From a virus, in the IMG/VR virus record IMGVR_UViG_3300046048_000485, positions 1 through 22,431 of that record: a stretch of 22,431 bases of DNA; one strand, written 5' to 3'. How positions within the stretch are numbered: position 1 is the stretch's first letter; the number at the start of each line of letters is the position of its first letter. A program made the position numbers and the translations under genes. This document shows, piece by piece, positions 2,996-20,702 of the stretch. The notes beneath the pieces were generated by a model. That model worked only from the letters and a program-made list of their open reading frames with translations, did not search any database and was not told where the DNA came from.

Positions 2996-3643
2996 ATGAG
3001 CGCACTCAACAAATGGGTCAAGGTGCAGGCGGCCATCGGCGCCCTCGGCACTGCGGTGCCCCTCAACTCGGTTTCTAAGGCCAATCCTGGGGTTGCCGCC
3101 TATACCGGCACCGATCCCAACACCGGCGACTTGCTCGCCTTTACCGATATTGTCGGCATGTATCAGATCGACAATCGGGTGATACGGGCCTCGGGGGTCG
3201 ACGGCACGGGTAATACATTCAATCTCGAGGGCCAGGACACGACCCTTTATGACACCTTCGTGTCGGGCAATTTCCAGCCGATCACCTGGGGGTCCAACTT
3301 TACGACCGTGATCGACTTCGGCGCCGGCGGGGGTGAGTTTGATACTTTGGACGCCACCACCGCGCACGATGCGTTGCGCAAGGTGTTGCCCAACATGGGG
3401 GCCGCGCCGGTATTCAACATGGTCAGCCAATGGAAACCGGATGATGCGGCGCTCGCCGCCGCGCTCGCCGCCAGTGAGGCGCAAAGCCTGGTGGCGCTGC
3501 GGGTGGTGTTCGCCACCGGCTATCGTTTTGCCCTCCTCGGCTATTTTGGCACCATCCTATTGCCCACCGGCGCGACCGGGCAATTGGTGCAAACGCCGGT
3601 GCTGTTTACTGGCGCCGCGCGGCAAACGAATTACGCGACATGA
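2996..3643 (+). CDS. Major tail tube protein
   Basis: A 215-residue protein preceded by the strongest ribosome binding site of the structural block (AGAGGAG at 2981-2987, nine bases before ATG 2996), as expected for the most abundant tail protein. The composition is Gly/Thr/Ala-rich with many short strands: a DIVGMYQIDNRVIRASGVDGTGNTF hairpin region, a NFQPITWGSNFT segment, and a C-terminal YFGTILLPTGATGQLVQTPVLF stretch, all in keeping with the tail-tube beta-sandwich of lambda V and type VI Hcp relatives. It sits between the tail terminator and the assembly chaperones, the standard position. No Ig-like C-terminal decoration domain is seen. Its end overlaps the next start (ATG 3640). Confidence 0.75.
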   Translation: MSALNKWVKVQAAIGALGTAVPLNSVSKANPGVAAYTGTDPNTGDLLAFTDIVGMYQIDNRVIRASGVDGTGNTFNLEGQDTTLYDTFVSGNFQPITWGSNFTTVIDFGAGGGEFDTLDATTAHDALRKVLPNMGAAPVFNMVSQWKPDDAALAAALAASEAQSLVALRVVFATGYRFALLGYFGTILLPTGATGQLVQTPVLFTGAARQTNYAT

Positions 3644-15918: not shown

Positions 15919-16389
15919 TTATCGGGCGCGGGTGAGCAGCACGGCGGCGCATTGGCCGGGGTAATACCACGACCAGGCGAGCGTTTCGGCGATGAGCCCG
16001 AGGGCTTGTGCGTAGCTATGCACCTCCTCGGCGGTGCCGTAGGTGTGCGTAATGAGCGCGGCCGGGCGGTAGGGCCGCGTCGGTTCGCGGAAGCATTCCG
16101 GGTGGTCGATCACGTGTGCGCTGCGATGCGACCATGATTCGTCGCGCAACGATCCGTTATGCCCCGCGGCGAGCCGTTGGGCGGTGAACGAGGTTCGGGC
16201 CATGATCCAGCCGCGCGAGGCGGCGAAGTCTTGGCGCAGGCGCTCGCGGGCCTGGGTCAGCGCATGGCGATCCTGCCACGCCTGCGCGCTGTTATGGTCC
16301 GTTCGCCTGCTCATCGATTGGATAAGGCGCAGGATGTTGGCCGCCGGGGCCCCGCCGGCGAGCTCGATTTCTTTCGCATCAGAATTCAC
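15919..16389 (-). CDS. Hypothetical protein next to attP
   Basis: A 156-residue protein from GTG 16389, which overlaps the preceding stop (GTGA) and lies inside an integrase arm-type repeat. The N-terminal half is helical and basic (AWQDRHALTQARERLRQDFAAS). The C-terminal half has His, Tyr and Trp-rich segments (ESWSHRSAHVIDHPECF, TYGTAEEVHSYAQALGLIAETLAWSWYYPG). I recognise no family. In the phage form it can be read with the integrase operon. After integration at attP it would be separated from that operon and placed behind the host tRNA promoter. Confidence 0.5.
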   Translation of the reverse strand: MNSDAKEIELAGGAPAANILRLIQSMSRRTDHNSAQAWQDRHALTQARERLRQDFAASRGWIMARTSFTAQRLAAGHNGSLRDESWSHRSAHVIDHPECFREPTRPYRPAALITHTYGTAEEVHSYAQALGLIAETLAWSWYYPGQCAAVLLTRAR

Positions 16390-16398
16390 GTCAGCCCC
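16379..16398 (+). repeat. Arm-type direct repeat, copy 1
   Basis: TCAGAATTCACGTCAGCCCC, identical to the copy at 16591-16610. It contains one CACGTCAG (16387-16394). It lies about 55 bp to the left of the tRNA-like core. Confidence 0.8.
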
Positions 16399-16787
16399 TT
16401 GGGTGATCGCCTGGAAAGTGGCGCGGGGCTTGGGGTTGCGGGCGATAGCACGCCAGATTTTGAGTCTGGTGCGTCTACCAATTCCGCCACCCCGGCATTG
16501 CCTTCAAACCCGCGCCCCGCTTGCGTTTGCGGGTTTTTCTCCATTTTCTCTACTGCCTCGCCTGACGTGTATTTTCGCGTCAGAGTCACGTCAGAATTCA
16601 CGTCAGCCCCCGCGAGCAATTCTGCTAACTCGGCCGCAACATACGCCGCCTTCGTTGGATCGCGAAGCATGGCCGCGTACCATAGCGCATTGTCGCCGCG
16701 AATGAATACCCCGGGCCAATCGTCACCGAATTGCACCGCGCCCGATTCGACTCGCGGCTCGGCTGCCGGTAACTGTCTCGCGCTCAT
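16386..16787 (-). CDS. Hypothetical protein whose 3' part runs through attP
   Basis: A 133-residue reading frame from ATG 16787, overlapping the integrase stop by ATGA. Residues 1-85 look like a genuine small globular protein (VQFGDDWPGVFIRGDNALWYAAML, KAAYVAAELAELLAGADV). From about residue 60 the frame crosses the right arm sites, from 84 the hairpin and from 98 the tRNA-like core (VAELVDAPDSKSG), then ends at the left arm. The tail is thus att sequence, and after integration it would be replaced by host sequence. Function unknown. Confidence 0.55.
   Translation of the reverse strand: MSARQLPAAEPRVESGAVQFGDDWPGVFIRGDNALWYAAMLRDPTKAAYVAAELAELLAGADVNSDVTLTRKYTSGEAVEKMEKNPQTQAGRGFEGNAGVAELVDAPDSKSGVLSPATPSPAPLSRRSPKGLT
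16453..16496 (-). other. tRNA-Leu(CAA) 5' half, att core, not a full tRNA gene
   Basis: Read on the minus strand from 16496: acceptor strand GCCGGGG, TG, D arm GCG-GAATTGGTAGA-CGC, A, then anticodon stem CCAGA, loop CTCAAAA (anticodon CAA) and stem TCTGG. Similarity stops right after the anticodon stem: no variable arm, no T arm (GGTTCGA) and no 3' acceptor strand follow. It therefore cannot make a tRNA by itself. The translated form in the overlapping ORF, VAELVDAPDSKSG, is the well-known reading of Leu tRNA genes. Confidence 0.85.
16506..16538 (+). terminator. Rho-independent terminator, plus strand
   Basis: AAACCCGC (16506-16513) pairs with GCGGGTTT (16529-16536), followed by Ts. It acts only on plus-strand transcripts, which would be antisense to the int operon here. 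On the minus strand the hairpin has no T tract and lies about 9 bases before the tRNA-like core. Confidence 0.55.
16562..16610 (+). repeat. Cluster of arm-type sites, including direct repeat copy 2
   Basis: This cluster holds CTGACGTG at 16562-16569 (inverted copy), CGCGTCAG at 16576-16583, CACGTCAG at 16587-16594 and CACGTCAG at 16599-16606. The last is within a second exact copy (16591-16610) of the 20-bp repeat at 16379. Direct spacing between the last three is about 11-12 bp, one helical turn, as expected for cooperative binding by an integrase arm-binding domain. Confidence 0.75.
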
Positions 16788-17740
16788 TTCAACCTCCCCA
16801 CCGCCCGGCGCTTGGCCTCGACGTTGAGGTGCGTATAGCGCGCCGTCGTGGCCGCGGCCTTGTGCCCCATGAGCTCGGAAATGGTGTGGCCCTCGACGCC
16901 TTGCTGCGCGAGCCACGAGCCGAAAGTGTGCCGCAGATCATGCACCCGCACGCGCTCGAGCCCCGCCTTTTTGCGCGCCCAATTGAATGCGGCCTGCAGG
17001 TTCCGGGGCGCGCCCTCGAGGGGCAGCCGGCGCACCGCGGCCCGAATCGCCGGGTGCACTGGGATCAAGCGCACCGATTCGCCCCCCGCCTGGCGGGCCT
17101 TGCCCGAGCGCGCGTAAATGACCCCGGCGCGCACATCCTCACGGCGCAGGCGCACGAGCTCGCCCAGGCGCAGGCCCGTATAGGCGAGGAGCACGATTAA
17201 ATCCTTGGTGCGTTGATACTTCGCGGCGGCCACGAGCTCGCCCACCTCGGCAGGGGTGCACCATACTTGCCGGCGCACGGCCCCGGGGAGCAACCGTATC
17301 CGCTTGCCGATGTAGTGCTCGGTCCAGCCCGCCTCGAAGGCGAGCGAGCAGGCGCGGCGAAGCGCCGCGAGTGATAAATTGATCGTGGCGACCGCGTAAT
17401 GAGCGCGGGCCGCCTTGATGAATTCCTGGGCGCACTCATAGGCCTGGTCGATCGTTTTGCCCTCGGCGTACGGGGCGAGCCGGTACACGCTCACCTCGGC
17501 CTTGCCCTCGCTCGGGGTGCCCTTGATCGAGCGCTCGATATGGTGCTGCAGACACGCGGCGAGCGACACGGCCGGGCGCTTGCCGTTTAGCTTTTCTCGC
17601 CACATATCAGCGCGAAGTTTGGCTTCGTAGGCGACGGCCTGGGCTTTAGTTGCGCCCGGCGGGCACCGGCGAAAAATGCGCCGGCGCGCGGCGGTAAAGT
17701 CGACGCAGTAACGGCCTCGGGAATCCTTGCGGACGGACAC
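16784..17740 (-). CDS. int: Tyrosine recombinase integrase
   Basis: A 318-residue protein. GTG 17740 is chosen because AAGGGGG precedes it and the following residues (SVRKDSRGRYCVDFTAARRRIF) form the usual N-terminal arm-binding strands; the longer frame to 18070 is a shadow. Residues about 55-150 are the SAM-like core-binding domain. The catalytic domain shows Arg191 in YTGLRLGEL, His267 and Arg270 in HDLRHTFGSWL, His293 in LMGHKAA and nucleophile Tyr302 in TARYTHL. It catalyses recombination between attP (immediately downstream at 16379-16610) and a host tRNA-Leu gene. The gene overlaps an excisionase-like gene by 154 nt and is followed by an ATGA-coupled gene. Confidence 0.95.
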   Translation of the reverse strand: MSVRKDSRGRYCVDFTAARRRIFRRCPPGATKAQAVAYEAKLRADMWREKLNGKRPAVSLAACLQHHIERSIKGTPSEGKAEVSVYRLAPYAEGKTIDQAYECAQEFIKAARAHYAVATINLSLAALRRACSLAFEAGWTEHYIGKRIRLLPGAVRRQVWCTPAEVGELVAAAKYQRTKDLIVLLAYTGLRLGELVRLRREDVRAGVIYARSGKARQAGGESVRLIPVHPAIRAAVRRLPLEGAPRNLQAAFNWARKKAGLERVRVHDLRHTFGSWLAQQGVEGHTISELMGHKAAATTARYTHLNVEAKRRAVGRLK

Positions 17741-17913
17741 GTGCCCCCTTGACGTATGAACCGATCCAAGCCCGAAATCGTAACACGAAGGCCCCGGGTG
17801 CCGATCCGCACGTGCTCGAGCGCGCCCTCGGCGCAGAGCCGATAGACTTGGGCCGGCGAGCACGCCAGGCGCTCGGCGGCGGCCTTGACCGAGCAAAGGC
17901 GCGCGGTGCTCAC
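17587..17913 (-). CDS. Excisionase-like helix-turn-helix protein
   Basis: A 108-residue frame from GTG 17913. Residues 1-60 (LCSVKAAAERLACSPAQVYRLCAEGALEHVRIGTRGLRVTISGLDRFI, given by its landmarks) form a MerR/excisionase-type winged HTH: V-K-x-A-A-x-x-L-x-x-S-P-x-Q-V-Y-R-L, then a wing with R-x-T and D-R-F-I. Proteins of this kind bend att DNA and direct the integrase towards excision. The remaining 50 residues overlap the integrase start in another frame and look less protein-like, as if only the frame stays open. Position directly before int supports Xis; a plain transcription regulator is the alternative. Confidence 0.7.
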   Translation of the reverse strand: MSTARLCSVKAAAERLACSPAQVYRLCAEGALEHVRIGTRGLRVTISGLDRFIRQGGTCPSARIPEAVTASTLPPRAGAFFAGARRAQLKPRPSPTKPNFALICGEKS

Positions 17914-19989: not shown

Positions 19990-20313
19990 TTATCGGGGGA
20001 TGCGTGGAGACTGTCGGGTGATCCCGACCATTCCGCGAAAAATCGCGCGCTCGGCTTCCGAGGCGCGACGAAAGGCGGCGACGAGCTCGAGCTCTTCGGC
20101 CGACCACCCCGACACGCCGAAAGCTAACTCACCCGGGGGCACCCCGAGGACGTCCGCCAGGCGCGCAATGTCGCCCAAATTGGGCTCGCGTACTTTGGAC
20201 TCGTAATTGCCAACGCGCCCCTGCGCATCCTCACCCCACCCGCAGCGCCGCGCGAGCTCGGCTTGTGACCAGCCGGCCGCTTCCCGCAACCGCTTGATCC
20301 GTTCTCCCAACAT
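19990..20313 (-). CDS. CI-like phage repressor, HTH only
   Basis: A 107-residue protein from ATG 20313 behind AGGGGG. Residues 1-65 are a classic HTH_3/lambda-repressor domain (ERIKRLREAAGWSQAELARRCGWG, YESKVREPNLGDIARLADVLGVPPGELAFG). The C-terminal 40 residues are helical (SAEELELVAAFRRASEAERAIFRGM). There is no S24/LexA-type peptidase domain, so RecA-stimulated self-cleavage is not expected from this protein itself. Divergent orientation to a YdaS-type Cro makes it the lysogeny repressor candidate. It is complete as read, with no sign of a lost downstream domain in other frames. Confidence 0.8.
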   Translation of the reverse strand: MLGERIKRLREAAGWSQAELARRCGWGEDAQGRVGNYESKVREPNLGDIARLADVLGVPPGELAFGVSGWSAEELELVAAFRRASEAERAIFRGMVGITRQSPRIPR

Positions 20314-20438: not shown

Positions 20439-20702
20439 ATGACGACTCCCAACCCTATTCGCAAGGCCGTGGCCCTCGCCGGCGGACCCACGCGGCTCGC
20501 CGCCGAGCTCGGCATTCGCCCGCAAACGGTATCGATGTGGATGGCCCGGGGCCGAGTGCCGGCGGGCCAGGTGATTGCCCTCGAGCATGCCACCGGCGGC
20601 GCGGTGACGCGGTACGAATTGCGCGCGGACATTTACCCACGTGAGCGCTCCCAACACCACGGCGGGGGGTTTTTAGACGCGCCGCCGCACCTAGAGTTCT
20701 AG
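20439..20702 (+). CDS. YdaS-type Cro-like protein
   Basis: An 87-residue protein. NPIRKAVALAGGPTRLAAELGIRPQTVSMWMARGRVPAGQVIALEHATGGAVTRYELRADIYPRE, recognised by L-A-A-E-L-G-I-R-P-Q-T-V-S-x-W, the V-P-A-x-x-V-I-A-L-E motif and the ending Y-E-L-R-A-D-I-Y-P, is the YdaS/Cro HTH family. Such proteins switch off the repressor and commit the phage to lytic growth. It is divergent from the CI-like gene and first in the replication operon. No ribosome site precedes the ATG. The C-terminal 20 residues (SQHHGGGFLDAPPHLEF) are extra to the domain. Confidence 0.85.
   Translation: MTTPNPIRKAVALAGGPTRLAAELGIRPQTVSMWMARGRVPAGQVIALEHATGGAVTRYELRADIYPRERSQHHGGGFLDAPPHLEF

Follow-up and report, generated by a model that had tools for sequence, protein, structure and literature searches.

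The linear virus record IMGVR_UViG_3300046048_000485 (22,431 bp, analysed over its whole length and called the window here) is a fragment of a phage genome in which positions 16375-16606 are, on sequence grounds, very probably the attachment site (attP) of a tyrosine integrase encoded at 16784-17740. It is an ordinary attP in all but one respect: the half of the tRNA gene in it is the front one, whereas in most such viruses it is the back one. The reading draws on the identity of the core, the arrangement of arm-type sites, the recurrence of their motif in a relative, the gene order and the restoration of a tRNA in a joined junction (Table 1). We are highly confident in the explanation as a whole, in which the integrase would bind arms and core, recombine the site with a host tRNA-Leu(CAA) gene and rebuild the tRNA on the integrase side. 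A first-pass annotation of this DNA had already proposed an attP of the adjacent integrase, whose coordinates it gave correctly, and the core, the arms, the intact integrase, an excisionase-like ORF and the gene order bear this out. The polarity of the tRNA half and its detachment from the host promoter are absent from that annotation. With this, the attP is mapped in a lineage of phages that has no close relative in the collections searched.

Table 1. Features of the attP region and of neighbouring genes in the window (int, integrase gene).
Feature	Position	Strand	Remarks
Predicted arm-type site, degenerate, CGCATCAG	16375..16382	+	far side; 12 bp from 16387 site
ORF through whole attP	16386..16787	-	starts at int stop (ATGA overlap)
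Predicted arm-type site CACGTCAG	16387..16394	+	far side
Probable attP core, nt 1-46 of tRNA-Leu(CAA)	16451..16496	-	46-nt identity to JALHQN010000001.1; joined junction rebuilds tRNA
Terminator-like hairpin followed by T5	16516..16533 (hairpin and T-run 16509-16541)	+	between arms and core; consensus scan only
Inverted CACGTCAG copy, role uncertain	16562..16569	-	int side
Predicted arm-type site CGCGTCAG	16576..16583	+	int side; 11 bp from 16587 site
Predicted arm-type site CACGTCAG	16587..16594	+	int side; 12 bp from 16599 site
Predicted arm-type site CACGTCAG	16599..16606	+	int side
Tyrosine integrase, 318 aa (Phage_integrase)	16784..17740	-	Pfam 3.5e-22; PHROG integrase 4.9e-45; predicted structure
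Excisionase-like HTH_17 ORF overlapping int start	17587..17913	-	Pfam HTH_17 2e-8; phrog_66 excisionase and transcriptional regulator 2e-4
Repressor	19990-20313		

The core extends from the first tRNA base to 2 nt beyond the anticodon stem. Minus-strand positions 16496 to 16451 are identical to the tRNA-Leu(CAA) of a Burkholderiales MAG (JALHQN010000001.1) and differ from it from nucleotide 47 on; the 5' half recognised earlier at 16453-16496 is present on the minus strand, with its length extended from 44 to 46 nt. Used as a query against bacterial genomes, a comparison that the first-pass annotation had proposed, the 44-nt core has an exact match in one of 84,980 species genomes, and this is the same MAG, in which the site is empty. 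Four of 399 genomes sampled from the MAG's order contain the core with three mismatches or fewer, three of them from the MAG's own family, and three of the four genomes that represent this family in the set match within two mismatches; genomes outside the order were compared for exact core matches only. The concentration of near matches in one family makes the core a pointer to a host from that family or a close one, and the MAG need not be the host itself. The tRNA sequence of the core is unusually lineage-specific and in this way indicates the probable host family. Between the window and the four genomes of that family, DNA similarity is limited to tRNA-Leu genes and some marginal matches of short length. 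No complete tRNA is detected by ARAGORN in the 22.4-kb fragment, and the half scores 26.6 bits with the Rfam tRNA model, under the gathering score of 29. Searches of viral contigs gave no match to the exact core (46 or 44 nt), the exact arm repeat or a tail protein query, and one distant integrase when close relatives of the phage were sought. Neither a lysogen of this phage nor a sequence of its junctions was found, the site being empty in the species genome with the exact core; this and the minority polarity of the tRNA half count against the attP reading, as does, weakly, the failure to recognise a promoter upstream of the 5' half.

To either side of the core, direct arm-type sites follow one another every 11-12 bp, in agreement with the flanking sites and one-turn cluster described earlier, and the exact 20-bp direct repeat TCAGAATTCACGTCAGCCCC, also described earlier, occurs at 16379-16398 and 16591-16610, 212 bp apart. 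All four exact copies of CACGTCAG in the 22.4 kb are in the attP region. With positions given on the integrase strand relative to the middle of the anticodon loop, the integrase side has TGACGTG or TGACGCG starting at -144, -132 and -121 and an inverted copy at -108, and on the far side TGACGTG starts at +68 and TGATGCG at +80. TGACGYG occurs nine times in the window, with five occurrences in the 232-bp attP stretch; no 232-bp span in 300 Markov-simulated windows contains five copies, with a maximum of four. Four copies of some 8-mer per 232 bp are not extreme by themselves in GC-rich DNA such as this. Because repetition of an 8-mer alone is unremarkable, the prediction that the TGACGYG sites are integrase arm sites gives most weight to their arrangement and to a relative, L073 (IMGVR_UViG_3300031951_000595), in which the motif recurs independently.

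The two closest integrases, those of L073 and L152, both belong to tRNA-Leu users. The L073 integrase is 36% identical over the best segment and 34% overall, and its locus has, from the integrase end onwards, TGACGCG at -103/-92, the 3' half of a tRNA-Leu(TAA) (by eye) and TGACGCG at +93/+104, with no further TGACGCG copies in the 5.8-kb locus. L073 resembles the window in having TGACGYG pairs 11 bp apart on both sides, a tRNA-Leu core and an overlapping HTH_17 ORF; it differs in carrying the 3' half, of tRNA-Leu(TAA), and in the placement of its arms compared with -144/-132/-121 and +68/+80 in the window. Its 3' half is also in line with int. An arm motif common to related integrases can accompany the 5' or the 3' half of a tRNA-Leu gene. 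L077 and L078 have the same layout with another motif, TTACACMGG, flanking a tRNA-Val 3' half (by eye). In L004, L005, L007, L012, L072, L074, L076, L082 and L152 a complete tRNA adjoins the int stop, and its 3' end faces int. Relatives ending at a tRNA had been suggested as a check, and L152 (36% identical integrase) ends beside tRNA-Leu(TAA) and the D3-like L082 beside tRNA-Leu(TAG). The first-pass annotation had set its proposal against two outcomes, a core shared by no bacterial tRNA-Leu and relatives that integrate elsewhere; neither arose: a tRNA-Leu has the same core, and the two closest integrases use tRNA-Leu. The window is alone among the loci compared in having a 5' half that is in line with int. 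L111 was considered as a second same-direction case and dropped, as its tRNA lies outside both arm groups, with phage genes beyond, and is a single copy. At 3184-3558, beyond int, L111 has GCTGACCG-type repeats in two groups and a complete tRNA-Thr(CGT) just outside them; this locus is possibly an attP with its own core beside a phage tRNA.

The tRNA half could instead be a passive remnant and the true core a different, short stretch that also lies between the arms; tRNA-dependent lysogeny works with cores of this kind. Short cores do exist, one of them at a tRNA-Leu-CAA gene (phage Gaia, PMC10865867). Decay would be expected of a passive remnant, but from the first tRNA base onward the 46 nt are all those of a present-day tRNA, and in the joined junction a complete gene results from them; the window has no complete replacement tRNA, and in L073 a tRNA half occupies the equivalent position between arms of the same motif. 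We consider a passive remnant quite improbable and retain the tRNA half as the core of the attP.

The integrase has the conserved residues of the tyrosine integrase family, and its predicted structure (mean pLDDT 89.6, pTM 0.69) consists of an N-terminal three-stranded sheet plus helix, followed by helical core-binding and catalytic parts. Structural or profile matches include Lambda Int, Tn1549 Int, P2 Int, HP1 Int and Xer proteins. The HTH_17 ORF, whose excisionase match is weak, likely encodes an excisionase; its start codon is not settled (the open frame reaches 18027), and an overlap of this kind with the int start is also present in Pseudomonas phage D3 and L073. Across the site the genes run in the order tail, endolysin, spanin, attP, int, excisionase, repressor, Cro-like and primase, and the order around attP is that of D3 and L073. 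The Cro-like gene (20439-20702) lies opposite the repressor; its best Pfam match is YdaS_toxin (8e-20), with weaker matches to P22 Cro and CI. In the structural region, just before the head-tail attachment gene, two consecutive ORFs (3-677 and 711-2240) are polysaccharide-deacetylase-like, the second with a weak match. A single integrated prophage would have its site split, so the unbroken continuity of lysis genes, attP, int and excisionase indicates that the window is phage DNA in un-integrated form, as had been claimed earlier from the uninterrupted genes. Two tandem prophages could also place such a site at their junction, in integrated DNA. Tandems of two or more are counted 125 times in Islander (PMC4383910), and the evidence here is a single linear record. 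Even so, the shared site would remain an att site of this integrase, a full two-armed attP would need both prophages to be of the same kind, the exact 20-bp arm repeat is present on both sides, and the gene order is that of the single phages D3 and L073, which together make a tandem very improbable. Least probable of all is that a regulator such as the repressor uses the TGACGYG repeats as its operators: one-turn-spaced direct repeats do occur in operators and the arm role is a sequence-based one, but the motif flanks a tRNA-derived core just after int, away from the repressor-Cro intergenic region, it recurs in L073 in the same layout, and other relatives keep this layout with a different motif.

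With the attP reading, the N-terminal domain of the integrase would bind the direct TGACGYG arms on both sides, and its other domains would bind the anticodon-stem region of the core. Strand exchange would take place in or near the anticodon loop (CTCAAAA), likely the overlap region, with a host tRNA-Leu(CAA) gene as attB. Joining in silico, with the crossover in the anticodon loop and the MAG tRNA as attB, gives a complete tRNA-Leu(CAA) on the integrase side and none on the far side, and the displaced host piece is a 5' fragment. Integration would thereby restore the target tRNA: as the phage carries the 5' half, the integrase-side junction would unite it with the host 3' half in an intact tRNA-Leu(CAA) that reads in the same direction as int, and the far junction would keep the host promoter with a truncated gene. 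In three genomes of the probable host family a CATAAT box can be seen by eye a short way upstream of the tRNA; on integration it would stay with the displaced 5' fragment. A consensus scan of 16300-16800, which takes in DNA upstream of the 5' half, found no sigma-70-like promoter; it did not pick up one in the host promoter region either, so this absence carries little weight. Detached from the host promoter, the rebuilt tRNA would depend in a lysogen on phage-side transcription, of which read-through from the int region would be the simplest source. The terminator-like hairpin is on the plus strand and minus-strand transcription would not be stopped by it; in a prophage it could block host transcription entering the int region. 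The 5'-half polarity thus predicts that the host tRNA is expressed from the prophage side in a lysogen. In E. coli the counterpart is leuX, a dispensable gene that is known as a site of island insertion, so poor tRNA expression might be tolerated. It is conceivable, if unlikely, that the phage takes over transcription of the host tRNA-Leu(CAA), which would then be made only through int-region read-through or from a phage promoter; if so, host tRNA supply would be tied to the prophage state, and this could favour cells that retain the prophage.

The attP lies inside an ORF, as the first-pass annotation had it, since one minus-strand frame spans the whole site. Only about the first 60 residues of this ORF belong to a conserved phage family, which is found in 53 viral contigs, and most of 19 inspected members end after about 60-85 residues. 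The conserved part (16590-16787, minus strand) represents a small-protein family with the motif GDDWPGVFIRGDNA, and the window copy has no Pfam or PHROG match. Because the arm sites start near residue 60, the remainder of the ORF is most plausibly att DNA in which no stop codon happens to occur. The frame also remains open across the in silico joined junction. A search for linkage of the family to this kind of integrase gave one weak match only.

Comparison with known systems places the window close to phage D3 (AF165214), whose integrase is 28% identical, whose attP directly follows int, whose excisionase overlaps the int start and whose lysis genes lie on the other side of attP. D3 carries a tRNA 3' half with its 3' end facing int (by eye), whereas in the window the half is the 5' one and runs in line with int. 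Among Islander tRNA islands, 3760 have a 3' tDNA fragment and 159 of 3919 a 5' fragment (PMC4383910), so the polarity of the window is a known minority type. As in those 5'-fragment islands, the element would provide the 5' half and push the host 5' fragment upstream; the islands are known in integrated form, through their ends (PMC4383910), and the window displays the un-integrated attP. Mycobacteriophages such as Fionnbharth and Gaia, which have tRNA-dependent lysogeny, combine a tyrosine integrase with an attB in a tRNA gene, tRNA-Leu-CAA in Gaia, and arm-type sites around the core (PMC10865867). In these phages the core measures about 8-10 bp and does not restore the tRNA, for which a replacement is encoded (PMC10865867). 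The window departs from this type, with a core that rebuilds the tRNA and no complete tRNA in the fragment, and, as far as this fragment goes, does not match tRNA-dependent lysogeny.
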